A stretch of DNA of 64,000 nt from Steroidobacteraceae bacterium (GTDB taxonomy: Bacteria; Pseudomonadota; Gammaproteobacteria; Steroidobacterales; Steroidobacteraceae). The position numbers and the translations under genes are program-made. Location of the stretch: positions 1-64,000 of the forward strand of contig JANWJS010000033.1 in assembly GCA_025451845.1 (NCBI GenBank). Reading direction: 5' to 3'. Under the pieces are notes generated by a model, which saw nothing but the letters and a program-made list of their open reading frames with translations, did not search any database and was not told the origin of the DNA. Positions within the stretch are counted from its first letter, which is position 1; every line of letters begins with the position of its first letter. Shown here one piece after another: positions 1,281 to 21,952 of the stretch.

Positions 1281-1344
1281 GCCAGAGGCGCGCCCGACCC
1301 TTTCTGCGAACGGGCGAAACCCCACGATCGGGCGGAGCGCGATT

Positions 1345-1391
1345 GGAATGGCAATTCCGAGGAGTACTGTAATAGAATAATAATTGCACAG
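1345..1391 (+). promoter_or_regulatory. Candidate RpiR/IolR operator and promoter region of iolCDEB
   Basis: A perfect inverted repeat GGAA-N6-TTCC (GGAATGGCAATTCC, 1345-1358) lies about 60 bp before iolC. It is followed by an AT-rich tract with outer arms CTGT (1367-1370) and ACAG (1388-1391) around AATAGAATAATAATTG. As recalled, GGAA-N6-TTCC matches the spacing proposed for RpiR-type IolR in rhizobia, and this cluster encodes an RpiR regulator. No clean -35/-10 pair was fixed. That RpiR binds here is inferred. Confidence 0.5.
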
Positions 1392-3340: not shown

Positions 3341-3599
3341 CGCCTCTCGGTCCTGAAGGACGGAGATTTCCGCCCATGAGAACACAGACACCCAGGATCA
3401 GGCAGTTGACGTTCCCACTGGAACGCGCTCCGTGTGTGCCCAGCCCACGCGCGGCCGCCGCCACCGCGCCATCGCACCCGCTTTCAGCGGGCCGCTCGAG
3501 AAACAGTTTCATACTCGTCGGCGGCGTGACCGCCGAGAAGGCCAACAGGCTGCGCTTCCTCCCCGGCCCCAGGTCCGGGGTTACCGCGCCGGAGACGTG

Positions 3600-5447
3600 A
3601 TGACGCGGATTCGTCTCACCGCGGCCCAGGCCGCCGTTCGATACCTGGCCAACCAGTTCATCGAGGAAAATGGCGGTCCCGCGCGTTACTTTGCGGGGGC
3701 CTGGGCCATCTTCGGCCATGGCAACGTCGCCGGGCTCGGCGAGGCGCTGCATGCCGCGGGCGGGGCGCTGCCCACCCTTCGCGCGCACAACGAGCAGGCC
3801 ATGGCCCATGCAGCGATCGCGTTCGCGAAAGCCTCACGCCGCCGGCGCGCCATGGTCTGCACCAGCTCCATCGGTCCCGGCGCGCTCAACATGGTCACGG
3901 CCGCCGCCGTCGCTCACGTCAATCGCCTGCCGGTGCTCTTCATGCCGGGCGATGTGTTTGCCGGGCGGGGCCCCGACCCGGTGCTGCAGCAGGTGGAGGA
4001 CTTCGCCGACGGGACGGTGAGCGCCAACGACTGCTTCCGGCCGGTGTCGCGCTACTTCGACCGGATACAGCGCGCCGAGCAGTTGGTCGAGACGCTGCCG
4101 CGAGCCATGGCAACGCTGCTGGACCCTGCGGGCTGCGGCCCCGTCACGCTGGCGTTCTGTCAGGACACGCAGACGGAGGCCTGGGATTTCCCCGCGCGGA
4201 TGCTCGAGCCTGCGAGCTGGTCCATCCGGCGGCCGCCGCCGGATGGCGAGGATCTGCGCCGCGCCGCCGAATATCTACGCGCCGCCCGCGCGCCTCTCGT
4301 GGTGGCCGGCGGCGGCGTGCTCTACTCCGCCGCCGAGGCCGCACTCGATCAATTTGCGCGGGCGACGGGCATTCCTGTCGCCGAGACTCAGGCCGGGCGG
4401 GGCGCCCTCAACTGGGAGCATCCGTGCTCGCTCGGCGCGATCGGCGTGACGGGGACAAGCGCGGCCAATGCGGCCGCAGCGGCGGCCGATGTCGTGCTGG
4501 CGATCGGCACCCGCCTTCAGGATTTCACGACGGCCTCGCGGACGCTGTTCGCCAAATGCACGCAGTTTCTCCAAGTGAACGTCAACGCCTACGACGCGCA
4601 CAAACACGGCTCGGTTGCAATTATCGGCGACGCTCGCGAGGTACTGCAGCAGCTGCGAGAGGCGCTCGCCGGGTATCGTGTACCGCAGGCGTGGAGCGAC
4701 TCGGTAGCAGCCGAGCGTGTCGCGTGGGAAGAAGCCTGGAGTCGTGCGGTGCGTCCACCGGCAGAGCGCGCGGAGCTCCCCTCCGACGCGCAGGTCATCG
4801 GCGCCGTCGGCCGCTGGGCGCGGAACGAGACCACCGTCGTCTGCGCGGCCGGAGGCCTGCCGGGTGAGCTGCACAAGCTGTGGCGGCCCGCACGCGCGGG
4901 CGGCTACCACGTCGAGTACGGATTCTCGTGCATGGGCTACGAGATTGCGGGCGGCCTGGGCGTGAAGCTCGCCGACCCCGACCGCGAGGTCGTGGTCATG
5001 GTCGGCGACGGCAGTTACCTCATGTTGAATTCCGAGATCGCCACTTCCGTGATGCTGGGGCTGAAGCTCGTGATCGTCGTGCTCGACAACCGTGGCTTCG
5101 GCTGCATCAACCGCCTGCAGAAGGCCACGGGCGGCGCCCCATTCAACAACCTGCTGGCCGATTGCGGGCAGAGCGCGGCGCCGGTGGACTTTGCGGCTCA
5201 CGCCGCCGCGCTTGGCGCGCAAAGCGAAAAGGTGATGGACATCGGCGCGTTGTCCACGGCCCTCGACCGCGCTCGCGCAGCGGCGCGCACCTACGTGATC
5301 GTCATCGACACGGACCCGCAGGCTGCGACGAATGGGGGCGGTGCCTGGTGGGACGTAGCGGTGGCCGAGGTGTCCGAGAAAGATTCGGTGCGCGCCGCCC
5401 GCGCGGAATACGACACGCGCCGCAAAGCGCGGTGGGAGAGCCCATGA
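3600..5447 (+). CDS. iolD: 3D-(3,5/4)-trihydroxycyclohexane-1,2-dione hydrolase (IolD)
   Basis: Thiamin-diphosphate enzyme that opens the inositol-derived ring to 5-deoxy-glucuronate, 615 aa. The track begins at 3432, but ATG 3600 is better: it is preceded by GGAG (GGAGACGTGATG) and gives the usual IolD start MTRIRLTAAQAAVRYLANQF. The cofactor-activating Glu is in HNEQAMAHAAIA (about residue 65), and the Mg/ThDP motif GDGSYLMLNSE starts near 469. The 259 bp after iolC hold only a short inverted repeat GTTCC-CACT-GGAAC (3411-3424) and a 74-codon ORF not believed real. The stop overlaps the iolE start as ATGA. Confidence 0.94.
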   Translation: MTRIRLTAAQAAVRYLANQFIEENGGPARYFAGAWAIFGHGNVAGLGEALHAAGGALPTLRAHNEQAMAHAAIAFAKASRRRRAMVCTSSIGPGALNMVTAAAVAHVNRLPVLFMPGDVFAGRGPDPVLQQVEDFADGTVSANDCFRPVSRYFDRIQRAEQLVETLPRAMATLLDPAGCGPVTLAFCQDTQTEAWDFPARMLEPASWSIRRPPPDGEDLRRAAEYLRAARAPLVVAGGGVLYSAAEAALDQFARATGIPVAETQAGRGALNWEHPCSLGAIGVTGTSAANAAAAAADVVLAIGTRLQDFTTASRTLFAKCTQFLQVNVNAYDAHKHGSVAIIGDAREVLQQLREALAGYRVPQAWSDSVAAERVAWEEAWSRAVRPPAERAELPSDAQVIGAVGRWARNETTVVCAAGGLPGELHKLWRPARAGGYHVEYGFSCMGYEIAGGLGVKLADPDREVVVMVGDGSYLMLNSEIATSVMLGLKLVIVVLDNRGFGCINRLQKATGGAPFNNLLADCGQSAAPVDFAAHAAALGAQSEKVMDIGALSTALDRARAAARTYVIVIDTDPQAATNGGGAWWDVAVAEVSEKDSVRAARAEYDTRRKARWESP

Positions 5448-6346
5448 GCGTTCGCTTCGGGGTGAGCCCCATCGCCTGGATCAACGACGACCTGCCCGAG
5501 CTCGGCGGTGAGACACCGGTGGAGACCGTGCTGCGCGATGCCCACGCTTTGGGCTTCGAAGGCATTGAGCTCGGCGGCAAATTCTCCCGTGATCCGGTGC
5601 GGCTCGGAACGCAGCTCAGCACGCACGAGCTCGCGTTGATCGGTGGCTGGTGGTCGGGCGCGCTGCGGGTCCGCTCGGTGGACGAGGAGATCGAGGCGTT
5701 GCAGGCGCACCTGCAGCTCCTCGAGGCTCTCGGCAGCAGCGTGTTCATCATCGCCGAGTGCAGCAACACGGTCCACGGCGACCGGCGGCGGCCGCTCGCG
5801 ACCACCCCGCGCCTGCCCGCTGCGCAGTGGCCGGAATTCGGGGAGCGGTTGAGCGCGCTCGCGCTTTACCTGGAGGATCAGGGCCTGCGCCTCGCTTATC
5901 ACTTTCACTTGGGCACGGTCGTGGATGGTCAGGACGACATCGAGCAGTTCGTCGCTCACACCGACGAGCGCGTCGGCTTCGTGGTCGATACCGGGCACGC
6001 GGCGCTGGGCGGCATCAATGCTGAGCGTCTGATCCGCAGCTACCCTGAACGTGTGACGCACGTGCATGCCAAGGATGTGCGCCGGCAGGTATTCGACGAC
6101 ACCCTGAAAGGCAACGGGAGCTTTCTCGAGGGCGTGCTGGCCGGAATGTTCACCGTACCCGGCGATGGCGATCTTGATTTCCGCGGCGTGGCGCAGGCGC
6201 TGGTCGATATCGGCTACAGCGGCTGGGTCGTGGTCGAGGCGGAGCAGGACCCCGCGCGCGCCGATCCGCGGGCCTATGGCCGGGTGGGTCTCGAGACCGT
6301 GCGCCGGCTCTTCGGGCCGGCTCACCTGGCAGGAGCCCCCCGATGA
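5444..6346 (+). CDS. iolE: Inosose dehydratase (IolE)
   Basis: Converts scyllo-inosose (2-keto-myo-inositol) to the trihydroxycyclohexane-dione used by IolD; a metal-dependent TIM barrel of the xylose-isomerase-like family, 300 aa. The true start is ATG 5444 (overlapping the iolD stop), not 4880. Protein begins MSVRFGVSPIAWINDDLPELGG, the standard IolE N-terminus. Metal and catalytic segments are visible: YHFHLGTVV, VDTGHAALGG near residue 181, and THVHAKDV. It ends ATGA into iolB, so iolD-iolE-iolB are translationally coupled. Confidence 0.94.
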   Translation: MSVRFGVSPIAWINDDLPELGGETPVETVLRDAHALGFEGIELGGKFSRDPVRLGTQLSTHELALIGGWWSGALRVRSVDEEIEALQAHLQLLEALGSSVFIIAECSNTVHGDRRRPLATTPRLPAAQWPEFGERLSALALYLEDQGLRLAYHFHLGTVVDGQDDIEQFVAHTDERVGFVVDTGHAALGGINAERLIRSYPERVTHVHAKDVRRQVFDDTLKGNGSFLEGVLAGMFTVPGDGDLDFRGVAQALVDIGYSGWVVVEAEQDPARADPRAYGRVGLETVRRLFGPAHLAGAPR

Positions 6347-7146
6347 ATCTGCGGGTGCGCCCGACGGCGCCGGATGCGGATGGCCGGGTTGTCGCCGTTA
6401 CGCCCGAGAGCGCGGGCTGGAAATATGTCGGCTTCGAGGTGCGCCGGCTGGCTGCCGGGCAACAGAGCATGCTGACATCGGCAGGCAAGGAGTTCTGCGT
6501 TCTCGTGCTTACGGGAACCGCCGATATAACGGTTGATGATCTCGCCTTTCCGAAGCTCGGCGGCCGCAAGAGCGTCTTCGACGACGCACCGCCCGGTGCG
6601 GTGTATGCGCCGGCCGGCTCCCGCATCCGCGTCCAGGCCGACAGCGACGCCGAGATCGCCCTATGCAGCGCGCCGGCTGCCGCCGCTGGCGGCGCGCGCG
6701 CCGTCTCCGGTGAGCGCATGACACAAGAAGTCAGGGGCCAGGGTACCAACCGCCGCTTCGTGCGCAACATCCTGCCCGAGACCGAGCCGGCCGAGCGGCT
6801 GCTCGTGGTGGAGGTGATCACTCCTGGAGGTCACTGGTCGAGCTATCCGCCGCACAAGCATGACACCGACGCGCCGCCCGCGGAGACCCAACTCGAGGAG
6901 ACGTACTACCATCGTCTGAATCCGCCGCAGGGATTCGCGGTTCAGCGCGTCTACACCGACGATCGCAGCCTGGACGAGACGGTCTGCGTGGAGGACGGGG
7001 ACGTCGTGCTGGTGCCGCGCGGCTACCATCCCGTCGGTGCACCGCACGGCTACGATCTTTACTACCTCAATGTGATGGCCGGGCCGGTGCGGCGTTGGAT
7101 CTACCGGGACGATCCGGCCCACGTGTGGCTCAAGCGCCCCCGCTGA
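6343..7146 (+). CDS. iolB: 5-deoxy-glucuronate isomerase (IolB)
   Basis: Isomerises 5-deoxy-D-glucuronate to 5-dehydro-2-deoxy-D-gluconate, the IolC substrate. 267 aa, normal for this bicupin family. Diagnostic segments are GGHWSSYPPHKHDTD, with LEETYYHRLNPPQGFAVQRVYTDD and then VLVPRGYHPVGAPHGYDLYYLNVMAG, which supply the metal-binding His/Glu set. It starts inside the iolE stop (ATGA), and its 3' end overlaps the convergent iolG by 17 bp. Confidence 0.95.
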   Translation: MNLRVRPTAPDADGRVVAVTPESAGWKYVGFEVRRLAAGQQSMLTSAGKEFCVLVLTGTADITVDDLAFPKLGGRKSVFDDAPPGAVYAPAGSRIRVQADSDAEIALCSAPAAAAGGARAVSGERMTQEVRGQGTNRRFVRNILPETEPAERLLVVEVITPGGHWSSYPPHKHDTDAPPAETQLEETYYHRLNPPQGFAVQRVYTDDRSLDETVCVEDGDVVLVPRGYHPVGAPHGYDLYYLNVMAGPVRRWIYRDDPAHVWLKRPR

Positions 7147-8146
7147 GCGCCACCGGACGCCCGGTGGCGTGGGAGCGCCATGCAGCCTCCGCGAGCTCGA
7201 GCGCGTGGACCCCGTCGGCGAAGCCGACGGCCGGCTCCTCTCCCCGCAGCACCCCGGCGAAATGATCCATCTCCAACCGGTACGCCTCGGCGTAGCGCTC
7301 CAGAAAGAAATTCTGGAACGGCGCGCGGCTGGCGCCCTCCTCGTCCCAGACGGCAACGGCGGTGGTCGTGAAATTGTCGACACGCACGGACCCACCTGAT
7401 CCGAACGCCTCTATGCGCTGGTCGTAGCCATAACCGCTGCGGCGGCTGTTGCTGATGAGGGCCATCCGCCCCGAGGCGGTACGCAGCAGCACCTTCGCGG
7501 TGTCGATATCGTCCGCGGCGCCGATCGCCGGGTCGACCAGACAGGCGCCCATTGCATAGACCTCCACGACCGGCTCCGCGAGCAGCCAGCGCGCCACATC
7601 GAAGTCGTGAATGGTCATGTCTTTGAATAGACCGCCGCTGACCTTGATGTAGCTCACCGGCGGCGGCGCGGGGTCGTGGCTGATGATGTGCAGCGTCTCG
7701 AGGCTGCCGATGGCCCCCGCTTGCAGCTTGTGGCGCAATGCGCGGAAGCTGGGATCGAAACGCCGGTTGAAGCCGAGAAAGAGGCGCGCTTTGGCGAGTG
7801 CTCCGGCTGCCGACCGCGCACGTTCCACGCTGAGGTCGACGGGCTTCTCGCAGAAGATGGCTTTGCCCGCGGCAGCCGCCTGCAGGCAATGCGTGAGATG
7901 TTGGTCGGTCGGGCTGGCGACGATGACGCCCGCGATGGCGGGATCGGCCAGCGCGCTCTCCAGCGTCGTCGCGGTCGCACCGTATCGGGCCGCCAGCGCC
8001 GCGGCGGCGTCGCCGAAGGGATCGACGACATACTTCAGCGCGAGCCCGGGATGCGCCGCCGCATTGGCGGCGTGAATCTTGCCGATCCGGCCGCCGCCGA
8101 GCAGCGCGACAGCGGGGCGAGAAGAGTGCTCGAGTGGCCTGATCAT
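7130..8146 (-). CDS. iolG: Inositol 2-dehydrogenase, Gfo/Idh/MocA family (IolG)
   Basis: NAD-dependent oxidation of myo-inositol to scyllo-inosose, the first pathway step. 338 aa with Rossmann motif LLGGGRIGKIHAANAAAHPG near residue 15, the conserved FCEKPVDLS, and the catalytic GGLFKDMTIHDFDVARWLL. It is convergent with iolB and preceded by the regulator gene, whose end it overlaps (ATGA at 8143-8146), so dehydrogenase and regulator are one transcript. With iolC-E-D-B the route is complete up to the aldolase products; only the methylmalonate-semialdehyde dehydrogenase (iolA) is not in the window. Confidence 0.88.
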   Translation of the reverse strand: MIRPLEHSSRPAVALLGGGRIGKIHAANAAAHPGLALKYVVDPFGDAAAALAARYGATATTLESALADPAIAGVIVASPTDQHLTHCLQAAAAGKAIFCEKPVDLSVERARSAAGALAKARLFLGFNRRFDPSFRALRHKLQAGAIGSLETLHIISHDPAPPPVSYIKVSGGLFKDMTIHDFDVARWLLAEPVVEVYAMGACLVDPAIGAADDIDTAKVLLRTASGRMALISNSRRSGYGYDQRIEAFGSGGSVRVDNFTTTAVAVWDEEGASRAPFQNFFLERYAEAYRLEMDHFAGVLRGEEPAVGFADGVHALELAEAAWRSHATGRPVALSGGA

Positions 8147-9063
8147 GTCTTCTCCCGCGCCGCCTGCCCACGGCGGCCGCTGCCGCCGCGGCCCTCGGGG
8201 CGCGGCTTACGGGTGCTGCGGAAGGCATAGCCGATCACGAGGGTCTGGGCGAGGCACATCGACGCCGCCAGGGAACGGAAGCCGCGGATCTCCGCCTCCT
8301 GCACCCGCAGGACGGTATCGGCCTCCTTGGCGATCTCGCTGACCTCGCTGTCCGTTATGGCGAGCACGGCCGCCTTCTGTGCGTGCGCGGCGCTCACCAC
8401 ATGGATGGTCTCCTCTGCGTACGGCCGATAGCTCACGCCGATCAGAAGGTCATCCGAGGCGATGCCGGCAGCCTGTTGGCGCCAGAGACCTGCGACGCCG
8501 TCGATGAACACGGTGCGTTTCGCGCTCTGCTGCAGCGAATACGCGAGATAGGCGGCGACGGGAAAGGCGCGGCGGACACCGACAACGTACACCGTGTTGG
8601 CCTGCTCCAGCAGCCGGAACGCCGCCGCGAGCTCCGCGGCGCCTACGGTATGGGTGAGTTGCCGCAGCGCGAGATCCGTGCCCTCGGCAAATTCGCGCAG
8701 CAGGCTCGCGGGATCGTTCTGCGGATTTTCCAACCGGTCCAGGGTCTGCCGCACCCGCTCGCCGTAGGCGGCGCCCGGATTGGCCGCGACCAAGTCGGCG
8801 CGAAACACGCGCTGCATCGGGGTCGCGCCATCGAAGCCGAATTGCTTGGCGAAGCGGACGATGGCGGACGGTTGCACGCCGCTGCGCTCCGCTATTACGG
8901 CCAGCGTCTCGAGCGCGACGTCGTTCGGCGCGTCGAGGACGTAATGGGCAAACTGGCGCAGCCGTCCGCTCAACGAGTCATATCGCGCGAGGATCGCCTC
9001 GCGCAGCTCCGCGGCCGTGGTTGGCGCCGTAGCCTGCTGCGGCGCGCGGCTCATGGGTAGCAT
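8143..9063 (-). CDS. RpiR-family transcriptional regulator (probable inositol regulator)
   Basis: 306 aa. N-terminal HTH_6 domain (residues about 20-95; LETLAVIAERSGVQPSAIVRFAKQFGF is the recognition-helix region) and a C-terminal SIS sugar-phosphate-binding domain (VYVVGVRRAFPVAAYLAYSLQQS to ADTVLRVQEAEIRGFRS). SIS-domain RpiR proteins repress inositol genes in rhizobia and release on binding a phosphorylated intermediate, so the same role is likely here. Overlaps iolG by 4 bp and is divergent from the MFS transporter with 105 bp between starts. The tail after SIS (KPRPEGRGGSGRRGQ) is low-complexity and probably disordered. Confidence 0.88.
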   Translation of the reverse strand: MLPMSRAPQQATAPTTAAELREAILARYDSLSGRLRQFAHYVLDAPNDVALETLAVIAERSGVQPSAIVRFAKQFGFDGATPMQRVFRADLVAANPGAAYGERVRQTLDRLENPQNDPASLLREFAEGTDLALRQLTHTVGAAELAAAFRLLEQANTVYVVGVRRAFPVAAYLAYSLQQSAKRTVFIDGVAGLWRQQAAGIASDDLLIGVSYRPYAEETIHVVSAAHAQKAAVLAITDSEVSEIAKEADTVLRVQEAEIRGFRSLAASMCLAQTLVIGYAFRSTRKPRPEGRGGSGRRGQAAREKT

Positions 9064-9100
9064 TGCCTGACGGCGCGCGTCCGGCGCGGGAGCAAGGAGT

Positions 9101-9143
9101 GCTTCATATTTTTCATATTGACAGAAATTAAAATAATCATACC
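9101..9143 (+). promoter_or_regulatory. AT-rich promoter/operator between rpiR-type gene and MFS transporter
   Basis: In an otherwise GC-rich region this tract reads TTCATATTTTTCATATTGACAGAAATTAAAATAATC. It has a tandem TTCATATT repeat, an arm pair TTTC-N9-GAAA and a TTGACA hexamer (9118-9123) directly followed by GAAATT. TTGACA(GC)GAAATT recurs upstream of the TonB receptor and of the second MFS gene, there with two extra bases. A good -10 at 17 bp from TTGACA is not obvious. Confidence 0.45.
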
Positions 9144-9168
9144 ATCGGTCGCCGGGAGGTTAACAGCC

Positions 9169-10599
9169 ATGCTCCGCGGTGCCCTCGAGTCGCCAGACGG
9201 CTCGCCGACGATCCCCACAGCGGTGAGCCGGCGGTTGCGGCGGCGGCTGCTCCTGATCAGCCTGGTCGCGACCCTCGGCGGCCTGCTCTTCGGGTACGAC
9301 ACCGGCGTGGTGAACGGTGCGCTCCTATACATGGGTCGCGACCTGCGGCTGACACCGGCCGATGAGGGCTTGATCACCGCCGCGCTGCTGTTGGGGGCGG
9401 CGCTCGGATCGCTCCTCGCCGGCAGGCTCGCGGACCGGATCGGCCGCCGGCACACCCTGTGGCTGTTGGGCGGCACCTTCGTCGCCGGAGCGATCGCCTG
9501 CGCCCTGGCGCCCGACCGCTCGGCGCTCGCCGCATTCCGCTTTCTGCTCGGGCTCGCCGTCGGTGGCGCGTCCGTCGTCGTGCCAACCTATCTCGCGGAG
9601 CTCGCCCCACCCGCCATCCGCGGCCGGCTGGTGACGCAGAACGAGCTGATGATCGTCTCGGGTCAACTGCTCGCCTTTGCCGTCAATGCCGTGATCGCCC
9701 ATGGATGGGGTGAATCGCATACTGTCTGGCGCTGGATGTTGGGGGTGGCCGCGCTGCCGGGCATCGCACTCGGCGTCGGCTCCGTGTTTCTGCCGGAGAG
9801 CCCGCGCTGGCTGATCGCGCGGGCCCGCTCCGCCGAGGCGGAGGCGGTGCTCGGCCAGCTGCGCCCGCCCGAAACGGCGGCGCTCGAGGCGCGCTCCATC
9901 GCCGCTCTCGCCGCGGCGGAGGCCGCCTCCGATATCCAGGGCTGGGCGGCGCTGCGCATCCCCTGGGTAAGAGCTGTGCTGCTGGTCGGCATCGGCATCG
10001 GCATCGTTCAGCAGGTGACCGGCGTCAACTCCATTATGTACTACGGCACGCAGATCCTGTCGCGGTCCGGTCTCGGGATCCAGGGCGCGCTGCTCGCCAA
10101 TGTGCTGAACGGGGTCATTTCCGTGCTCGCCACGTTCATCGGCATCGCGCTCGTCGGCCGGACCGGCAGGCGGCCCATGCTGGTCATCGGACTCATCGGC
10201 ACGACCTCCTCGCTCCTGCTGCTGGGGGTCGTGTCGCTGCTCTTCCAGCCCTCCCCCTCGCTCGCGTATCTCGTGCTCGCCGCCATGTCGCTCTTCCTCT
10301 GCTTCCAGCAGGGGTTCGTCTCGCCGGTGACCTGGCTGCTCCTCTCTGAGATCTTCCCACTCAAGGTACGCGGCCTCGGCATGGGCGGGGCCACCCTGGT
10401 GCTCTGGGGCGCGAATTTCGTGGTCGCCTTCTCCTTCCCGCAGCTCGTGGCGCGGTTCGGAGTCTCCTCGACCTTCTTCGGCTTCGTAGTGGTGGGACTC
10501 CTCGCCGTCGCGTTCTCGGCCCGCTACGTGCCTGAAACCGGCGGCCGCTCGCTGGAGGCGATCGAGGAGCTGCTGCAGCGGCGTTATACGGACCCTTAG
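9169..10599 (+). CDS. MFS sugar-porter, probable myo-inositol:H+ symporter
   Basis: 476 aa, 12 predicted membrane segments, major facilitator sugar-porter subfamily. Signature segments are GGLLFGYDTGVVNGALL, GRLADRIGRRHTL, PESPRWLIARARS, QQVTGVNSIMYYGTQI and the C-terminal PETGGRSLEAIEELL. The track uses TTG 9118, but GGGAGG at 9154-9159 sits 9 bp before ATG 9169, so 9169 is chosen. Position next to the regulator and iolG makes inositol the likely substrate (IolT/ITR-like); the sequence alone does not exclude hexoses. Confidence 0.85.
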   Translation: MLRGALESPDGSPTIPTAVSRRLRRRLLLISLVATLGGLLFGYDTGVVNGALLYMGRDLRLTPADEGLITAALLLGAALGSLLAGRLADRIGRRHTLWLLGGTFVAGAIACALAPDRSALAAFRFLLGLAVGGASVVVPTYLAELAPPAIRGRLVTQNELMIVSGQLLAFAVNAVIAHGWGESHTVWRWMLGVAALPGIALGVGSVFLPESPRWLIARARSAEAEAVLGQLRPPETAALEARSIAALAAAEAASDIQGWAALRIPWVRAVLLVGIGIGIVQQVTGVNSIMYYGTQILSRSGLGIQGALLANVLNGVISVLATFIGIALVGRTGRRPMLVIGLIGTTSSLLLLGVVSLLFQPSPSLAYLVLAAMSLFLCFQQGFVSPVTWLLLSEIFPLKVRGLGMGGATLVLWGANFVVAFSFPQLVARFGVSSTFFGFVVVGLLAVAFSARYVPETGGRSLEAIEELLQRRYTDP

Positions 10600-10711: not shown

Positions 10712-13435
10712 CTAGAACTTGTAGGTCGCGGAGAGATTGACCTCCCTACCCTCGTAGGGACGGGCCAGAACGACGTTGCCAACACCGATCGCGCGGCCGA
10801 ACTCGCGTGCATTGCCCTCGGTCAATGCGATCGCGTTCGTCAGGTTGGTCCCCTGCACCCGAAACGTCCAGTTATTGCCCAGATCGGTCAGGATACCGCC
10901 GCTCAGCATGTTGTAGGTGCCCAGAGGCTGCTGACCGTAGGTGTCGTTGAAGCGCTGACCCACGTGCTCGAAGGTGAGCCAGGCGGTCACGTCGCCCCAA
11001 GGAACGTTCGCGGAATAGCTCGGCGTCAAGCGGACCTGGAACTTCGGCTGCCGTTGCAGCGGCGCGCCATTGATGAACACGCACTGATGATTGCCGTAGA
11101 TGTCGATGAACGCCAGGCACGAGCGGTTGTTCGTGTAGTGGCCGTCCATGTAATCGCCCACGATCCGCAGCGTGAGTCCAGCGAACGGTCCGATGTAGCC
11201 GTCCACGTCGAAGCCGTTGGCCGTCGATCCGTAAGTGCCATATCCGCCCGCAATGGGCACGCCGGAGAGATCGGATTCCTGGTAGAAGATGCCGTCGAAG
11301 GTGCGGTGGTAGCCGCTGAGGTCGAGATACAGGTAGTGAGCCTGAAACTTGTAGCCGACCTCGTAGTTGTGCGCAGTCTCGATCGGGTGGAACGTAGGCG
11401 GCTTGTTGTGGGCGGTGTTCGCGATGTCGTCGAAGGCCAGGAAATGAACGCCGTTATTGACCCGCACGTAAGCGCTCATGTTGCTCGAGAAGGTGTAGTT
11501 CAACCCGGCAGTGAACGTAGTCTTCGTGCGCGCATAGTGCTCGAAATCGAAGGTGCCGTTGCAGATGGGCACCTTGTTGTCGTACACGTCGAAGGTCGAG
11601 CCGAGCTGCTGATTGCTGGTCTGGCAGGTGCGCTGGTGCAGGTCGATGTGCTCGAGGCGAGCGCCGGCGTCGACCAGCACCGGCCCGAGGCGCCAGCTGT
11701 CGCTGAAATAGGGCGCGATATTGCGGCCATCGCCATGGCGCCCGGGGGTGTTGTAAGTGCCGTTCTCGTTGACGATGCCCTGGGGGCTGGTGAGATTATA
11801 GGTCTGGCCGATTTGGCCGCCGTTTGCGGCGTTTCCCACGTAGTTCAGGGCGATCATCCGGGCATTGGATGTGGCCGTCATCAGCGCGCTGTCCGCCGCC
11901 CATTTGTCGTTGTCGGTGTAGAACGCCACGTACACCCCGGCGGTCAGCGAATTGCCGTCGAAGATCTCGCGGGTCACCCGGAACTCGTCGGTGACGTTCT
12001 GTATCGATTTCTGGATCAGGTGGTAGCTCATCTGCACGACGTTCGCGGAGAGCGGCACGGGCGCTCCGCTGCCGGCATAGGTCGCCTGGATGCCGTAGGC
12101 GTTCGGGTCGAATCCCTTGCCGCCGTTCAGGTTGTTTCCGTCTATGGGAGTGGTGCCGGCGGCACCACTGCACCAGCCGGTCGGCTCCGGCACCTTGCAG
12201 CCGTAAAGATACATGCTCAGGGGGCGCGGGTTGGGACCGGAGAACCACCCGTTGGTATCGAGGCCGCCGCCGTCGGCGAGGAAGCCGTTGTGCAATGTCC
12301 AGCCGCCGATGTGCTGATCGTAATTGACGCCGAAGTAGTAGAGGTTGCTGCCGCGGCCGTTGGCGAGATTCGCGTTCATGAAGCCGCCGCTGAAGGGATC
12401 GGCGAGCGTCAGATTCTGGTTGGCGTAGCCGTTGAACGTGCCGGTGAGCGGATTGAAACCCGGATAGCCGGAGAGCGATCCGCTCGGGCTCTGGACCAAC
12501 GGGATGGGTGTGATGTACTCGTCTTTTTCATCGAGCGCGCGCGCCCATGCCGTCACCGTACCCCCGCTGATGTCGTGCGTCAGGGTGGCGGTGAACTGAC
12601 CGCCGTCGATAGCGTCGAACTGCGGGTCGCGAACCCCGTGTGACACGTTGTAATAGCCGCCCGCGCTGCCATACCAGCCGTCGGCGATCTTGAAGCCGTC
12701 GTAGGCGTCGCCACGCCACATGCCCTCGGTCCCATACGTGGCCTCCACCAGCCCGCCCGGTGAGTTCTTGCCGTTCTTGAGGATGTAATTGGCTGTGCCG
12801 CCGAACTGGCCGGGGCCGAACACCACGGAGGGTCCGCCCTGCACCACCTCGACACGCTCGATCGTCTCATCGAGACGGTACAGCGAGCTCGAATCCATGT
12901 AGGCGAGGTTGGGCGCACCGTAGAGCGGCAGGCCCTGGATCATGTTGGTGAAGAACGGCGAATCGCCACCGCTCGGGTAGCCTGCCACCTCGATGTTGGC
13001 GCCGGTCTGGCCACCCGAGGCCTCCGGCCAGATGCCGGGGGCTATCTTGAGGATGTCGGCGGAGCTGAGCGGGTTCGACTCCTTGATCAGCTCGCTATCG
13101 GCGGCGACGACGTTGTAGCTCGCATCGAGCTTTCTCACCTGTGTCGCGGTGGCGGTCACCACGACTTCCTGCAGGTTCTGTGAAGTCTGCGCCGAGCCGA
13201 CGGGCTGCGTGGACGGCGCGTTCTGCGCGCCAGCCGCCGCGTTCTGCGCATGCGCCGGAACCGCCAGGCCGGTCCCGCCGAGAATGCCGGCGACTACGGC
13301 TGCGACGCTGCCCGCACGGGGGCCCCTGAAGCGGGAGCGCTGCCAGGTCGCGGAAGGGGAACTGATGCTGTCGGCAAGGCGGTGCGACGGCCGGACGGAC
13401 TGCGCGCTCTTGCCGGGCACTCTGTTGGTTCTCAT
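10712..13435 (-). CDS. TonB-dependent receptor
   Basis: Outer-membrane active transporter, about 907 aa. N-terminus has a long basic region, a signal sequence (SVAAVVAGILGGTGLAVPAHAQ), a TonB-box-like LQEVVVTATA, a plug domain (NPLSSADILKIAPGIWPEASGG to VEVVQGGPSVVFGPGQFGGTANYILK) and a 22-strand barrel ending LSATYKF. The track starts at TTG 13453; ATG 13435 sits about 9 bp after GGGGGAG and is preferred, with ATG 13441 as the alternative. Divergent from the glycoside cassette, with a matching promoter element 43-50 bp upstream. Likely imports the oligosaccharide or glycoside used by that cassette; the substrate is not readable from sequence. Confidence 0.88.
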   Translation of the reverse strand: MRTNRVPGKSAQSVRPSHRLADSISSPSATWQRSRFRGPRAGSVAAVVAGILGGTGLAVPAHAQNAAAGAQNAPSTQPVGSAQTSQNLQEVVVTATATQVRKLDASYNVVAADSELIKESNPLSSADILKIAPGIWPEASGGQTGANIEVAGYPSGGDSPFFTNMIQGLPLYGAPNLAYMDSSSLYRLDETIERVEVVQGGPSVVFGPGQFGGTANYILKNGKNSPGGLVEATYGTEGMWRGDAYDGFKIADGWYGSAGGYYNVSHGVRDPQFDAIDGGQFTATLTHDISGGTVTAWARALDEKDEYITPIPLVQSPSGSLSGYPGFNPLTGTFNGYANQNLTLADPFSGGFMNANLANGRGSNLYYFGVNYDQHIGGWTLHNGFLADGGGLDTNGWFSGPNPRPLSMYLYGCKVPEPTGWCSGAAGTTPIDGNNLNGGKGFDPNAYGIQATYAGSGAPVPLSANVVQMSYHLIQKSIQNVTDEFRVTREIFDGNSLTAGVYVAFYTDNDKWAADSALMTATSNARMIALNYVGNAANGGQIGQTYNLTSPQGIVNENGTYNTPGRHGDGRNIAPYFSDSWRLGPVLVDAGARLEHIDLHQRTCQTSNQQLGSTFDVYDNKVPICNGTFDFEHYARTKTTFTAGLNYTFSSNMSAYVRVNNGVHFLAFDDIANTAHNKPPTFHPIETAHNYEVGYKFQAHYLYLDLSGYHRTFDGIFYQESDLSGVPIAGGYGTYGSTANGFDVDGYIGPFAGLTLRIVGDYMDGHYTNNRSCLAFIDIYGNHQCVFINGAPLQRQPKFQVRLTPSYSANVPWGDVTAWLTFEHVGQRFNDTYGQQPLGTYNMLSGGILTDLGNNWTFRVQGTNLTNAIALTEGNAREFGRAIGVGNVVLARPYEGREVNLSATYKF

Positions 13436-13483
13436 CGGCATGCACTCCCCCAATGACCAGTGGCGGGAGCATACTGTAATGAA

Positions 13484-13518
13484 AATTTCGCTGTCAAGAT
13501 CATTGGAACAGGCATTTT
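13484..13518 (-). promoter_or_regulatory. Shared promoter/operator element, copy next to TonB receptor
   Basis: Plus strand: AATTTCGCTGTCAA (13484-13497), 7 bp, GGAA (13505-13508), N6, TTTT (13515-13518). Read toward the receptor on the minus strand it contains TTGACAGCGAAATT. The flanking TACTGTAAT (13472-13480) also occurs upstream of iolC. A second copy with identical internal spacing faces the MFS gene 310 bp away. Confidence 0.55.
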
Positions 13519-13806
13519 GAGGCGACGGGAGCGGCTACGCTACCGCGCAATTGTTTCCGAGCGACTACAATTCGATGGGACGATGTTCGGTGGCCGCGCG
13601 AGGCGCGCAGGCCGGAGCCGCGGCGCCCGCTCGAGCCCGACGTGTAATCAAGGGCTTAGCATTGAAAGGGCTGGAGATGAGCTTCATCGGGCCCGACTTC
13701 ATCGCCGCGCCCGGGCCCATGGAAGCGGCGCGTCGCGCTGACCGACGTCGGGGTCATGGCGCTCGCGTGCAGCAACCGCGAAGCCGCGCGGCGGCGCGCT
13801 CCGCGC

Positions 13807-13841
13807 GAAACAAATATTCCACGGCTTTTGACAGCGAAATT
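13807..13841 (+). promoter_or_regulatory. Shared promoter/operator element, copy next to glycoside cassette
   Basis: Plus strand TTGACAGCGAAATT (13828-13841), the exact complement of the 14-mer at 13484-13497. The complement of GGAA-N6-TTTC lies at 13807-13820, again separated by 7 bp. TTGACA may serve as the -35; a convincing -10 was not found. It lies 112 bp before the MFS start, in the same relative orientation as the other copy has to its gene. Confidence 0.55.
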
Positions 13842-13952
13842 GCCATGCAATAACCTTCGCGCGATGCGATTGCGGGCGACACCACCGGACCGGCTGCGAT
13901 GCACCGCGCTCGCGCTCTACGACTGAGGCACCCTCTCGTGCTGACGAACACC

Positions 13953-15176
13953 ATGAAGCTGCGCTTGAACGCGATGATGTTCATGGAGTTCTTTACGTGG
14001 GGCGGGTGGTTCGTCACCATGGGAAGCTTTCTCACCGGCAACCTGCACACCACGGGGGCGCAGAACGGGATCGCCTATTCGACGCAGGCGTGGGGCGCGA
14101 TCATCGCGCCCTTCCTCGTGGGCCTGATCGCCGATCGCTATTTTCACGCGGAACGGCTGCTCGGCATCATCCACATCGCCGGCGGCGTGCTGATGCTGAT
14201 GCTGGCGCGCGCGCATGACTTCGCGCACTTCTATCCGTACCTGCTGGCGTACATGATTATCTACATGCCTACGCTGGCGCTGGTCAATGCAGTCTCATTC
14301 CGGCAGATGGACGTGCCGGCGCGGGACTTCCCCAAGGTGCGCGTATGGGGAACGATCGGGTGGATCGTCGCGGGCCTGCTGATCAGCTACGTGTTTGGAT
14401 GGGACTCGCCCGGGCCGCTCGCGCAGGGTGCACTGCAGCATACCTTCGCGATGTGCGCCGTGAGCTCCTTCTTGCTCGGCGTTTATAGCTTCACGCTGCC
14501 GCGCACTCCGCCGCTCGGCGCTACCCAAGGGAGGCGGAGCCTGGGCAGTGTGCTCGGCTTCGATGCTTTGGAGATGCTGCGCGAGCGCAATTTCGCCGTT
14601 TTCTTCTTCGCCTCGATCCTGATCTGCGTACCGCTCGCGTTTTATTATTCGGACGCCAACCAGTTCCTGACCGAGATCCATATTGCGCACGCGGCGGGAA
14701 AGCAGACGCTGGGGCAGGCGTCAGAGCTCTGCTTCATGCTGCTACTGCCACTCTTTCTCAAGCGTTACGGAATGAAGACGACGCTGCTCATAGGCATGGT
14801 CGCGTGGGCATGCCGATATGCGCTCTTCTCGCTCGGAGATGCCTCGCACCTGGAGTGGCTGCTGCTCGTCGGGATCGCCCTGCACGGGCCCTGCTATGAC
14901 TTCTTCTTCGTCTCCGGCCAGATCTACACGGATACCCGCGCCGGCCCGCAGAGACAGGCGGCCGCTCAGGGGCTCATCACGCTGGCCACCTACGGTGTCG
15001 GGATGCTGATCGGATTCTCCGCCGCAGGCTTCATCACCGACCGCTACAGCGTGGCGGCCGGCCACGACTGGGTCACTGTCTGGGCCTATCCCGCGGTGTT
15101 TGCGTTCGCGGTGGCGGTGCTCTTCCTATTCTGGTTCCGCAACGAGCGGCTCGCGCATGCCATCCCCCAGCACTAG
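13953..15176 (+). CDS. MFS transporter, nucleoside:H+ symporter-like (NupG/YegT type)
   Basis: 407 aa, 12 predicted membrane segments. Starts [27 protein letters not shown], the typical N-terminus of the nucleoside:H+ symporter family, with [27 protein letters not shown] in the middle and [24 protein letters not shown] near the end. ATG 13953 is chosen over the track start 13899 because conserved sequence begins there. Relatives often sit beside sugar isomerase, oxidoreductase and DUF1080 genes and probably carry sugars or glycosides rather than nucleosides. First gene of a five-gene plus-strand cassette. Confidence 0.8.
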
Positions 15177-15231
15177 CCCCGGCCCGGGTGGGCCGGCAAG
15201 CACGGCCGCCGGCTCGTTCCGGCCGCGGCCC

Positions 15232-16443
15232 ATGAAACTCAGCATCCTCACGGCGGCGCTGCAGGAGCTGACTCCCCGGGATCTGCGGGAAGCGGATCCC
15301 GATCTCGCCATCGAGGAGTGGCTGGCGTTCGCAGCGCAGATCGGCGCGCCGAACATCGAGCTGTCATGCGCCCTGCACCCCACGCAGAGCGACGTTCCGG
15401 CCGCGGCGCTGCTCGATCCGGTCGCCAACACGCTGGATCTGCGCAAACCCTTCACGCCGGCTCGGGCGGCGCGGACGCAGAGCGCGATGCGCGCCACCGG
15501 CGTGGGCCTCTCGGAGCTCGGCTACTTCGACAATATGCTGGCGGCCGACGAAAAGGCGCGCGCGACCAAACACGAACTGATGCTCCGCGTCTTCGATGCC
15601 GCGGTACTGCTGCATTGCGACGCGGTAGTAGGCTTCGTCGGACGCAACCCGAGGATCGGCCTGGACGCCAACCTCGATATGTTCGAGGAGATATTCGTTC
15701 CGCTGCTGCGGGAAGCCAAGGCACGGGGGCTGACGTATCTGGTAGAGCAGTGCCCGATGCCGGGATGGACCGTCTCGGATTCATGGCACAACCAGATCGC
15801 CTATGCGCCCGGCCCCTGGATCGCGCTCCACCGCATCTGCGAGCGGCACGGCGTCGGCGATCAGTTCCGCATTCATTACGATCCCTCGCACGCGATCCTC
15901 ATGGGGCAGGACTCGCGCTCGGTATTCCAGTATCTGCGGGACTGCGGCTACGCCTTCCTCATTCAGCGTTTTCACGTCAAGGGACAGGTGATCGACTCGC
16001 GCGGCATCGCTGCGTGGGGCTATGGCGGCCAGACAATGCAGCGGGGTGACCGCGACGGCGACACGCCACGCGCCAATCCCGCCGAGCAGCTCAACGCCTG
16101 GAAGAAGCAGACGGTTTTCTCGGAGCACGAGCTGCCGGGAACCGCGCGCCACGACCCCCTTGCCTACCTGCAGAACCGGTCCGTGGACTGGCTGGACCAC
16201 CAGCTCGCGGCCCGGGAGCTTCTGGATCTCGATCCGGAGCGGACCTATCTCGTGTTGGAGCATGAGTACCCCAAGGCGCGGGTGCAGGATAAGGCGCTCC
16301 TGGGACCGATTCTCGCCGGCTCGCTCGCTTTTGCGCGTGCGATCGACGAGGCGGCGGCCGCAATGTATGCCTTGCAGCACGAGGTGCTGCCGGCGCGGGG
16401 CATCCCGGCCCAGGGCTTCGGCAGGGAAGCCTACCGAACATGA
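15232..16443 (+). CDS. Sugar phosphate isomerase/epimerase-like TIM barrel protein
   Basis: 403 aa, xylose-isomerase-like AP-endonuclease-2 fold. Visible segments are [59 protein letters not shown] (likely metal Glu), [16 protein letters not shown] (Asp/His ligands), [12 protein letters not shown] and LVLEHEYPK. Members act as metal-dependent isomerases, epimerases or lyases on keto sugars. The track start 15100 overlaps the previous gene; ATG 15232 opens the conserved domain. The cassette suggests it processes a 3-keto sugar or glycoside; the exact reaction is unknown. Confidence 0.75.
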
Positions 16444-16471
16444 GCTGACTTCAGCGAAGGAGCATTGATCG

Positions 16472-18274
16472 ATGCCATTCGTGACTGCAAGCACGCAACG
16501 CGAAGCCTACGACGTCATCATCGTAGGGTCCGGCGCAGGTGGAGGACAGGCCGCCTACACCTTATGCATGGAAGGCGTGCGCGTGCTGATGCTCGAGGCC
16601 GGCCGCCGGTACACACCGGCGAGCGAGAGCCCGATGTTTCAGACCCCGGACATGGCGCCCCTCGGCGGCGCGAGCACTCCCGATAAGAATAAGGGCTTTT
16701 ACGACGCCACGCTGGATGGCGGTTGGGATGTGCCCGGCGAGCCTTACGTGTCCGTCCCCGACAAGTGGGGAGCGCAGTTCACCTGGTGGCGGGCCAGGAT
16801 GCTCGGCGGCCGCACCAACCATTGGGGCCGGATATCGCTGCGCAATGGTCCGTATGATTTCAAGCCCCGCAGCCGCGACGGGCTCGGGTTCGACTGGCCG
16901 ATCACCTATGACGACGTCGCGCCCTACTACGACAAGGTGGAGATGCTGATCGGCGTCTACGGCGGCGAGACTTCGCTCGAGAACACGCCGGCCGGACCCG
17001 GCGGGATTCTGCTGCCGCCGCCGAAGCCGATCGTCAGCGATCACCTCCTCATGAAGCGCGCCCCGCGGCTCGGCATCCCGGTGCTGCCGGGGCGGCGAGC
17101 GGTCCTGACGCGTGCTCAGGACCACCGTACCCTCCCAGGCAAGTTGCACCCGGGCAATGCGCGAGCACAGCAGATCCTCGCGGAGGCGATGCGCAAACGC
17201 TCGCCCTGCCTGTGGGCAACGCCATGTGGGCGCGGCTGCGCCGTGGCCGCGAACTACCAGTCCACCACCGTGCATCTACCGCCGGCCCTCGCCACTGGCA
17301 ATCTCGACATCATCACGAACGCGATGGTGTATGAAGTCACGATGGGCAAGAACGGGCGGGCGAACGGCGTTAGATTCGTCGACTCCACAACGGGCCGCCA
17401 CGAGCATGCCGCCGGCCGAGCGGTCGTGCTCGGTGCGAGCGCGTGCGAGAGTGCACGCATCCTGCTCAACTCCCAGAGCGGGCAGTTCCCAAATGGGTTG
17501 GCAAACTCCAGCGGACGCGTCGGCCGTTACGTATTGGATACCGTCGGCAGCTCCGTGAGCGCACAGATCCCGTTGCTCGAGAGTCTGCCGCCCCTCAATG
17601 AGGACGCCGCCGATGGACTGCAGGTCTATGTGCCCTGGTGGCTGTACGAGGAGCAGCTTGCGCATAAGCTCCCGTTCCCACGCGGCTATCACGTCGAGTA
17701 CGGCGGCGGCAAGGGGATGCCCTCCGTCGGGACGTTCGCCGGGCTCGAGTGGCTGACGGGCGGCAGCTACGGGAAGAAGTTCAAGGAGGATGCCCGGCGA
17801 TATTACGGCTCGTTCGTGTACCTGGACGGGCGGGGCGCCATGGTGCCGAACGACAATTCTTATGTCGACATCGATCCCAAGGTGAAGGATAAGTTCGGCA
17901 TCCCGGTGCTGCGCTTCCACTGGCAATGGGGCGATTACGAACAGCGCCAGGCAGTTCACATGCAGCAGACCTTCGGCGCCCTCGTGGCGGCCATGGGCGG
18001 ACGTCTGCAATCACCGATCATCACCGATCCGGTGCAGGCGATCGCCCCTGGCGGATACATGATCCACGAGGTCGGCGGCACCATCATGGGGGCAGAGCCG
18101 CGCAGCTCGGTCACCAACAGGTGGTCGCAGACATGGGACGTGCCGAACCTCTTCGTTGCCGACGGCGGCGTGTTCCCCTACAACGCGGACAAGAACCCGA
18201 CCCTGACCATCATGGCGCTGGCGTGGCGCATGTCCGATCACATCCTGGAACGGATGCGGAGGCGTGAGATATGA
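16472..18274 (+). CDS. GMC-family FAD oxidoreductase
   Basis: 600 aa. FAD-binding VIIVGSGAGGGQAAYTLCMEGVRVLMLEAG at the N-terminus, WWRARMLGGRTNHWGR, the C-terminal IHEVGGTIMGAEPRSSVTN near residue 531 and NPTLTIMALAWRMSDHI near 573 (GMC catalytic His/Asn region). Good ribosome site GAAGGAG before ATG 16472. Its stop overlaps the next gene (ATGA), which encodes a gluconate-2-dehydrogenase subunit-3-like protein, the usual partner for export and electron transfer in glucoside 3-dehydrogenases. Probable role is oxidation of a sugar hydroxyl, likely C3 of a glycoside. No cytochrome subunit is linked here, unlike the second GMC complex. Confidence 0.85.
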   Translation: MPFVTASTQREAYDVIIVGSGAGGGQAAYTLCMEGVRVLMLEAGRRYTPASESPMFQTPDMAPLGGASTPDKNKGFYDATLDGGWDVPGEPYVSVPDKWGAQFTWWRARMLGGRTNHWGRISLRNGPYDFKPRSRDGLGFDWPITYDDVAPYYDKVEMLIGVYGGETSLENTPAGPGGILLPPPKPIVSDHLLMKRAPRLGIPVLPGRRAVLTRAQDHRTLPGKLHPGNARAQQILAEAMRKRSPCLWATPCGRGCAVAANYQSTTVHLPPALATGNLDIITNAMVYEVTMGKNGRANGVRFVDSTTGRHEHAAGRAVVLGASACESARILLNSQSGQFPNGLANSSGRVGRYVLDTVGSSVSAQIPLLESLPPLNEDAADGLQVYVPWWLYEEQLAHKLPFPRGYHVEYGGGKGMPSVGTFAGLEWLTGGSYGKKFKEDARRYYGSFVYLDGRGAMVPNDNSYVDIDPKVKDKFGIPVLRFHWQWGDYEQRQAVHMQQTFGALVAAMGGRLQSPIITDPVQAIAPGGYMIHEVGGTIMGAEPRSSVTNRWSQTWDVPNLFVADGGVFPYNADKNPTLTIMALAWRMSDHILERMRRREI

Positions 18275-18933
18275 CCGACAGGCGTACGACCATCAAGCTG
18301 GTCATCGCGGCGGCGACCGCGCTGCCGGCGCTGCGTGCCCGCGCGAACTACAAACAAAATCTGGAGCCGGGTGCGTCCTCACCCGGATCCCTGCGGCAGT
18401 TCGAGCCTACGATGCAGGGATACGGCCCCGATCCGGATCTGGTCAGGGCTTATGAGAAGGGCGCCTTCTGGCCGTTGACCCTGAATGTGCAGCAGCGGCA
18501 GCTCGCCGCGGCGCTCTGCGACCTCATCATTCCCCGGGACGAGCACTCACCGTCGGCTTCCGCGGTGGGAGTGGTGGACTTCATCGACGAGTGGATCAGC
18601 GCCCCCTATCCACAGCAGCGTGGGGACCGCGTTACGGTGTTGCGCGGATTCGCCTGGCTGGATGAGGAGGCCCGGCATCGTTTCGGGCAGCCGTTCGCGA
18701 AGCTGCACGAGGCGCAGCAGCGCAAGATCTGCGACGGGATCTGCGACATCAGCCGCGCCCCCGCGGCACTGCAGGAACCGGCGCAGTTCTTCGCCGCTTA
18801 TCGCAACCTGACTGCCGCAGGGTTCTATACGACTCTGGCCGGCCGCAAGGACGTCCAGTACATCGGCAACGTGGCGCTCACCCATTTCGACGGGCCGCCC
18901 GTCGAGTTACTCAAAAAGCTGGGACTATCATGA
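18271..18933 (+). CDS. Gluconate 2-dehydrogenase subunit 3-like protein
   Basis: 220 aa. N-terminus DRRTTIKLVIAAATALPALRARA is a twin-arginine-type signal, which can export the folded FAD partner. Mature part contains LAAALCDLIIPRDEHSPSASAVGVVDFIDEWIS and AAGFYTTLAGRKDVQYIGNVALTHFDGPP, characteristic of the gamma subunit of sugar dehydrogenases. Overlaps the GMC gene by 4 bp at its start and the DUF1080 gene by 4 bp at its end, so these three are coupled. Role is the small chaperone/export subunit of the dehydrogenase. Confidence 0.85.
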   Translation: MTDRRTTIKLVIAAATALPALRARANYKQNLEPGASSPGSLRQFEPTMQGYGPDPDLVRAYEKGAFWPLTLNVQQRQLAAALCDLIIPRDEHSPSASAVGVVDFIDEWISAPYPQQRGDRVTVLRGFAWLDEEARHRFGQPFAKLHEAQQRKICDGICDISRAPAALQEPAQFFAAYRNLTAAGFYTTLAGRKDVQYIGNVALTHFDGPPVELLKKLGLS

Positions 18934-19685
18934 ACGTGTTTCGCGCGCAGGCAATGCACGGTATGTGGCGGCTCGCTCTGCCGCTGACCCTGGTACTGTC
19001 GTTGGGTGGTGCATCGCTCGCAACGGCGCAGGCTCCTCCCGCGGTGCACCACGGTGCCCAACAGAGGGAGTTACCGCAGGGCGAAGGCGCCTGGCAGAAC
19101 TTGATACAGGACAGCTCCGCTCCGCTGTTGCGCGGTTGGCAACATCCTGGGCTGCCTGCCGGGTGGACCATCGAGAATGGCGTGCTCTGCAAGAGCGGAC
19201 CGGTGGACGATCTGCAGTCCACGCGAACTTATAAGGACTTCGAGCTGGAGCTCGATTGGAAGATCGGCAAGGAAGGCAACAGCGGCATCTTCTATCGGGC
19301 CACGCACCAGTACGACGAGATCTACTGGAGCGGGCCCGAATACCAGCTTCTCGACGACGCGAATGCCGCGGACGGCAAGAACCGGCTCACGGCGGCAGGA
19401 TCGGTGTACGCCATGTATCCTTCGCCGGCCGGCGTGGTGCATCCTTATGGCCGCTGGAACAGGGCCCGCATCATCGTGCGCGGCCATCACGTCGAGTACT
19501 GGATGAACGGGCGCCGGATCGTTGCTTACGAGCTGGGAAGTGTCGACTGGAAGAAGCGCGACGCCGCCTCGAAGTTCTCGGCTTATCCAGGCTACGGTCT
19601 GGCACCCGAGGGCTTGATCGGGATCCAGGGAAACCACCCTGGCGCCGTCTCAATCCGCCACATGCGCATCCGGATACTGCCCTAG
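18930..19685 (+). CDS. Secreted DUF1080 (3-keto-disaccharide hydrolase-like) protein
   Basis: 251 aa, concanavalin-like jelly-roll domain. N-terminal signal sequence (MWRLALPLTLVLSLGGASLATAQA) places it in the periplasm or outside. Domain signatures are FELELDWKIGKEGNSGIFYRATH, YWSGPEYQLLDD, YGRWNRARIIVRGHHVEYWMNGRRIVAYE and GLIGIQGNHPGAVSIRHMRIR. DUF1080 proteins have been shown to cleave 3-keto-glycosides. As last gene of a cassette with a sugar oxidase module it fits as the bond-cleaving enzyme after C3 oxidation. Start overlaps the preceding stop (ATGA). Confidence 0.83.
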   Translation: MNVFRAQAMHGMWRLALPLTLVLSLGGASLATAQAPPAVHHGAQQRELPQGEGAWQNLIQDSSAPLLRGWQHPGLPAGWTIENGVLCKSGPVDDLQSTRTYKDFELELDWKIGKEGNSGIFYRATHQYDEIYWSGPEYQLLDDANAADGKNRLTAAGSVYAMYPSPAGVVHPYGRWNRARIIVRGHHVEYWMNGRRIVAYELGSVDWKKRDAASKFSAYPGYGLAPEGLIGIQGNHPGAVSIRHMRIRILP

Positions 19686-21430: not shown

Positions 21431-21952
21431 ATGCGAAAGTCCGCGCTTCGTTTTCCGGCCACCATCAGGATCAGGGGGATCAATCCCTACGTGGCGGTCA
21501 GTAAGCGCCGCGCGGGGCAGTTGCAGGAGGATTGGCGCCGGCCGATGCCGGTGCGCGTCCGCGTAAACGGCAAGCCGGCACGAAAGCCGTGGCGCATCAA
21601 CCTGATGCCGGCGGGAAATGGCAGCTTCTTTCTCTACCTGCACAACTCAGTCCGGGAAGCATCTGCGACGCGCGTCGGGGATCGCGTCACGGTGGAACTC
21701 CAATTCGACCGATCCTACCGTAATGGACCTCTGCATCCGCTGCCTCGCTGGTTCGGCGCGGCGCTGAGCGCCAATCCGCGGGCAAAGCTGAATTGGAGCA
21801 GGCTCACTCCCAGCCGCCGGAAAGAAATCCTCAGGTACTTCGCGGCTCTGAAGTCGGATGACGCCAGGCAACGCAATCTGGTGCGCGCGATGACGGCGCT
21901 GTCGGGAGCGCCAGCCCGATTCATGGCCCGGAGTTGGAGCGAGGGGAAATAG
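21431..21952 (+). CDS. YdeI/OmpD-associated family protein with DUF1905 domain
   Basis: 173 aa. Residues about 5-95 form the DUF1905 beta-barrel (LRFPATIRIRGINPYVAVS, MPVRVRVNGKPARKPWRINLMPAGNGSFFLYLHNSVREASATRVGDRVTVELQFD). The C-terminal LSRLTPSRRKEILRYFAALKSDDARQRNL-like part matches the bacteriocin-protection YdeI/OmdA helix pair. Proposed functions in this family are envelope stress or antimicrobial-peptide resistance, without a firm biochemical role. Its last 32 bp overlap the convergent SRPBCC gene. Confidence 0.78.
   Translation: MRKSALRFPATIRIRGINPYVAVSKRRAGQLQEDWRRPMPVRVRVNGKPARKPWRINLMPAGNGSFFLYLHNSVREASATRVGDRVTVELQFDRSYRNGPLHPLPRWFGAALSANPRAKLNWSRLTPSRRKEILRYFAALKSDDARQRNLVRAMTALSGAPARFMARSWSEGK

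Follow-up and report, generated by a model that had tools for sequence, protein, structure and literature searches.

Tandem IolR-type operators predicted at the promoters of a TonB-dependent receptor gene and a glycoside cassette beside a myo-inositol catabolic locus in a Steroidobacteraceae bacterium

The question raised by this locus is why the promoters of a TonB-dependent receptor (TBDR) gene and of a glycoside cassette carry the same 14-mer, AATTTCGCTGTCAA, at 13484-13497 (plus strand) and 13828-13841 (minus strand) of the window, the whole stretch of 64,000 nucleotides analysed here. As the preliminary description had claimed, both copies are followed by the N7-GGAA-N6-TTT spacing and have the same orientation relative to the gene, reading TTGACAGCGAAATT in the gene direction at the TBDR and at the cassette. 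Each 14-mer is part of a longer tandem element (13475-13519 and 13806-13850, respectively); the promoter regions of iolC and of rpiR/sugar porter display the same tandem layout as well, without the 14-mer. We consider it highly probable, from sequence comparison, that each element is a promoter-operator module and that both belong to a local myo-inositol (IolR) regulon that is coordinately repressed by an IolR-like RpiR protein. The TBDR and the glycoside-oxidation genes are probably induced together with the myo-inositol breakdown pathway. Shared control by one regulator, as first suggested, is thus retained, while the inositol operon in the left part of the window had been missed. Also absent from the preliminary description were the identity of TTGACA as a -35 box, that of GGAA-N6-TTTC as a degenerate IolR operator, and the occurrence of the same tandem at iolC and at rpiR/sugar porter.

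Genes iolC, D, E, B and G, together with an RpiR-family gene, mark the cluster as a myo-inositol catabolic locus, and it is because these iol genes and the RpiR regulator adjoin that operators at the TBDR and the cassette find an explanation. Homologues of the window's RpiR protein are encoded next to iol genes both within the family and among sphingomonads; those of the sphingomonads are 51-59% identical to it, which lends indirect support to a possible orthology with Caulobacter CC1297. The sugar-porter MFS transporter is a probable inositol permease, and its true start is probably the ATG at 9169, since the listed TTG start at 9118 coincides with the -35 hexamer. The cassette comprises genes for an MFS transporter (nucleoside-permease-like), a TIM-barrel isomerase, a GMC oxidoreductase, a gluconate-2-dehydrogenase subunit 3 and a 3-keto-disaccharide hydrolase.

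Table 1 Coordinates of the genes, putative operators and promoter hexamers in the window.
Feature	Position	Strand	Basis, score or remark
iolC-aldolase, iolD, iolE, iolB and iolG	1418..8146	+ (iolG, -)	NCBIfam, all above curated cut-offs
RpiR-family regulator (HTH_6 + SIS), proposed IolR	8146..9063	-	Pfam
Sugar-porter MFS transporter	9118..10599	+	TIGR00879, above cut-off
TonB-dependent receptor (TBDR)	10712..13453	-	Pfam plug and barrel
Gfo/Idh/MocA oxidoreductase gene remnant, 148 bp	13652..13799	+	74% identity over 148 bp to the 5' end of the intact gene
Glycoside cassette	13899..19685	+	Family and domain matches
iolC operon promoter, putative tandem TGGAATGGCAATTCCG + TAGAATAATAATTGCA, 29 bp apart	1344..1388	+	Best tandem in the window
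rpiR/sugar-porter divergent promoter, putative tandem TGCTTCATATTTTTCA + TAAAATAATCATACCA, 29 bp apart, TTGACA between	9100..9144		Third-best tandem
TBDR promoter, predicted -10 TATGCT	13468-13473		18-bp spacer to -35
TBDR promoter, putative downstream operator CGAAATTTTCATTACA	13475..13490	-	Score 14.9, rank 5 of 63,985 positions; in -35/-10 spacer
TBDR promoter, predicted -35 TTGACA	13492..13497	-	Sigma-70 consensus scan with -10, 10/12 matches
TBDR promoter, putative upstream operator CAAAATGCCTGTTCCA	13504..13519	-	Score 11.3, rank 7; contains GGAA-N6-TTTT
Cassette promoter, putative upstream operator CGAAACAAATATTCCA	13806..13821	+	Score 18.6, rank 2 of 63,985
Cassette promoter, predicted -35 TTGACA	13828..13833	+	Read from sequence
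Cassette promoter, putative downstream operator CGAAATTGCCATGCAA	13835..13850	+	Weak: score 2.3, rank 63; in -35/-10 spacer
Cassette promoter, predicted -10 TAACCT	13851-13856		17-bp spacer; poor, 3/6 matches

In the gene direction, each element places the -35 hexamer TTGACA between two degenerate 16-bp IolR-type operators (TGGAA-N6-TTCCA) that are offset by 29 bp. The receptor element reads CAAAATGCCTGTTCCA-ATGATC-TTGACA-G-CGAAATTTTCATTACA and the cassette element CGAAACAAATATTCCA-CGGCTT-TTGACA-G-CGAAATTGCCATGCAA. The downstream operator begins with GCGAAATT and lies inside the -35/-10 spacer, and the GGAA-N6-TTT(T/C) noticed at the outset is the upstream operator of each element. That of the TBDR has a single good half-site only, and the downstream site of the cassette is the one weak member among the eight tandem operators of the window. 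The -35 hexamer of the cassette is a perfect match to the sigma-70 consensus; its -10 was missed by the promoter consensus scan. Upstream of iolC, a perfect operator core, GGAATGGCAATTCC, occupies 1345-1358 and is followed by a second site 29 bp later. An ECF-type -35, GGAAC, was also considered and set aside, as it points away from the receptor gene.

Because a motif should not be fitted to the finding that it supports, a palindromic matrix was derived from 58 sites of other genomes, in part closely related to one another, with the window and its nearest relative excluded. The four best 29-bp tandems of the window are those of iolC (33.4), the TBDR (26.1), rpiR/sugar porter (23.1) and the cassette (20.9), and the next best reaches 2.8. 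In 150 simulated windows, the 29-bp tandems stayed at or below 15.5, so that none reached 20.9; a control locus with a distant RpiR gene scores 22.1 as well. The operators predicted at the TBDR and cassette promoters are degenerate and form 29-bp tandems above background. The composite of 14-mer and N7-GGAA-N6-TTT occurs at two places only in the 64 kb, and was absent from 100 shuffles with three mismatches allowed. It could be argued that the match reflects chance together with a common -35 hexamer, given that the sigma-70 -35 consensus accounts for six of the 14 shared bases. However, the independent matrix and the fixed 29-bp offset select the same places, and relatives conserve these; with the matrix and the simulated windows against it, we reject chance as having a negligible probability.

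The exact 14-mer is found at two places only in the whole genome (4,398,083 bp), upstream of the TBDR gene and the cassette. Neither a 14-mer common across the chromosome nor a lack of conservation among relatives, either of which would have refuted the preliminary description, was observed. No match with one mismatch exists in the whole genome, and nine are found with two mismatches. A tandem pattern written post hoc from the three clearest promoters is restricted, at zero mismatches in the whole genome, to the iolC, TBDR and cassette promoters of this cluster, and gave no match there with one mismatch. A looser pattern, using the strongest matrix positions at 29 bp, picks eleven places in the genome, namely iolC and the TBDR at their scores of 33.4 and 26.1 and others of at most 14.6. 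Scanning the genome for single sites (TGGAA-N6-TTCCA, one mismatch) returned 87 places versus 51 for the reversed control, and is therefore too unspecific for finding unlinked targets. One single IolR-type site of the window, at 21693-21708 inside an ORF, has a score of 15.2 (rank 4) and no 29-bp tandem partner.

The closest comparison can be made with the nearest relative, REEB272 (L030, and L128 from the same contig), the only close relative with the cassette, in which the RpiR protein is 94% identical, the gene order is shared with the window, and the cassette follows the same order at 72-92% identity. In REEB272 an intact 1.2-kb gene (L128, 8820-10058), a Gfo/Idh/MocA oxidoreductase gene by Pfam, separates the receptor from the cassette, and both elements are kept, each adjoining its own gene. 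Their retention despite the intervening gene supports a function for the conserved elements. The TBDR downstream operator CGAAATTTTCATTACA and the -35 and -10 hexamers are identical there, and the TBDR upstream operator scores 13.7. The cassette upstream operator is CAGAACAAATATTCCA, and the downstream one keeps its position and its 29-bp offset at a score of -0.1; the rpiR/sugar-porter tandem scores 22.6. Beyond the 148-bp remnant, the window has lost the oxidoreductase gene through a deletion that ends just short of the cassette operator. The same comparison bears on whether a miniature mobile element of 358 bp ends in the 14-mers as its terminal inverted repeats, an idea prompted by exact inverted repeats that face each other 330 bp apart. 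Yet the genome holds no other exact or one-mismatch copy, the flanking bases show no target duplication, and in REEB272 the same repeats flank an intact gene; on these grounds this reading is scarcely credible and was rejected.

Conservation extends beyond this pair. In G034, of the same genus, a 73% identical TBDR lies beside iolC, and the layout of its promoter is the same, with TGATTTATTTATTCCA, TTGACA and TGGAGTTTTCATTGCA, at 30 bp. Among the other genomes, whose RpiR genes mostly lie next to iol genes, 16 site pairs are spaced at exactly 30 bp, seven at 20 bp and six at 60 bp, compared with 0.4 pairs expected at 28-32 bp; the pairs are in part dependent, as these genomes include close relatives. 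In relatives the tandems, usually at 30 bp, are located at iol promoters and also in the interval that separates a phytase gene from an MFS gene. A search for the TBDR across the class returned one distant homologue only. The promoter regions of 29 more distant TBDRs score at most 12.2, versus 26-29 for three TBDRs in iol clusters, a comparison in which orthology and the presence of the regulator are confounded. TBDR homologues outside iol clusters (L087-L091, L103, L105, L112) carry another, TGACATCGATATCA-like dyad and probably answer to a different regulator.

That other TBDR homologues of the genus bear another dyad, TGACATCGATATCA, lends some weight to the view that the 14-mer is the site of another regulator, for example a LacI-family protein that recognises TTGACAGCG half-sites in the promoters of sugar genes; TGACAGCG resembles a half-site of some LacI-family operators. 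However, the 14-mer is not a dyad, G034 has the GCG replaced while TTGACA and both IolR-type operators are kept, and the iolC and rpiR promoters share the tandem and not the 14-mer. We regard control by another regulator as very unlikely, and a LacI-type operator was rejected for its lack of a dyad and the unconserved GCG. The reading with the best support is that a single regulator, probably the RpiR protein through predicted binding, controls both the TBDR and the cassette.

We tentatively propose the following mechanism, in which protein binding, repression rather than activation, the oligomeric state and the ligand are inferred. When inositol is absent, the RpiR-family protein would occupy both operators on nearly the same face of the helix, probably in the form of a tetramer (two dimers); the 29-30 bp offset corresponds to about three helical turns. 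Bound to an operator within the -35/-10 spacer and to another immediately upstream of the -35 box, the tetramer would block RNA polymerase and keep it off the promoter. Binding of a sugar-phosphate-like inositol intermediate in the SIS domain would release RpiR, and this release would jointly induce the receptor, the sugar porter, the iol enzymes and the glycoside cassette. Such a scheme resembles the IolR regulon of Caulobacter crescentus and other alphaproteobacteria (PMC2597717), in which an RpiR/SIS gene likewise lies beside the iol genes, the palindrome is the same, and catabolic and transport genes are controlled alike. In Caulobacter, the RpiR-type IolR controls iol promoters via GGAA-N6-TTCC, and deletion of iolR, or mutation of one of the two iolC sites, derepresses them (PMC2597717). 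There too, a promoter may hold more than one site, with those of iolC 59 bp apart (PMC2597717), whereas the tandems described here are tighter, at 29-30 bp around the -35 box. The present regulon would also differ in belonging to a gammaproteobacterium, in including a TonB-dependent receptor and a glycoside-oxidation cassette among its targets, and in pairing an MFS transporter with a TBDR for uptake instead of an ABC transporter.

The main rival is that the RpiR protein binds these elements and activates, the upstream operator setting the ligand-bound protein beside RNA polymerase, as proposed for pneumococcal NanR. NanR, also of the RpiR family, is an activator; its tetramer, which is stabilised by the ligand, has been proposed to connect a full site with a half site (PMC12713135), and the upstream operators here are indeed placed just upstream of the -35 box. 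Both systems share an RpiR protein, a near-palindromic site and a tetramer proposed to span two DNA sites; however, in NanR a full site is combined with a half site (PMC12713135), whereas the two sites described here flank the -35 region or overlap it. A protein bound at the downstream operator, within the -35/-10 spacer, would block the polymerase, the perfect -35 hexamers should not need the help of an activator, and the Caulobacter IolR is a repressor. Activation thus appears improbable, and repression by the IolR-like protein remains our preferred reading. The tandem layout recurs, at 29-30 bp as well as at 20 and 60 bp, and offers a direct test of two-site binding by RpiR proteins.

If the regulon is as predicted, RpiR-type IolR control extends to a gammaproteobacterial family, and the receptor and the cassette, which annotation alone could not place, can be given a regulator, a class of inducer and a likely class of substrate (inositol or conjugates of it). 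3-Keto-disaccharide hydrolases act on glycosides jointly with GMC-type dehydrogenases (PMC9007349), and the cassette, like the lacABC-type 3-keto-glycoside pathway of Caulobacter (GMC dehydrogenase and DUF1080 hydrolase, PMC9007349), unites a GMC oxidoreductase, a 3-keto-disaccharide hydrolase, a sugar isomerase and a transporter. In contrast to that pathway, it adjoins the inositol pathway, apparently under its operators, and no link to lactose is indicated. In two genomes of a related genus, a phytase gene and a divergent MFS gene (Pfam on L136) have a strong 30-bp tandem in the interval between them (L136, 16697-16742; L138, 3297-3342), which suggests phytate use under inositol control; the regulon elsewhere thus appears to include an enzyme that frees inositol from a conjugate. 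By analogy with this phytase, we raise the tentative and rather doubtful possibility that the cassette frees myo-inositol from a glycoside such as galactinol, taken up via the co-regulated TonB receptor. The cassette would then be the glycoside counterpart of the tandem-bearing phytase. Within the literature collection searched, nothing relevant connected IolR to a TonB receptor, to a cassette of this kind or to phytase, nor galactinol to 3-keto oxidation. IolR-type single sites are also present upstream of TBDRs that are unrelated to that of the window and lie near iolR-type genes, in a Sphingobium MAG (L034, 6092) and in G002 (L041, 7664).
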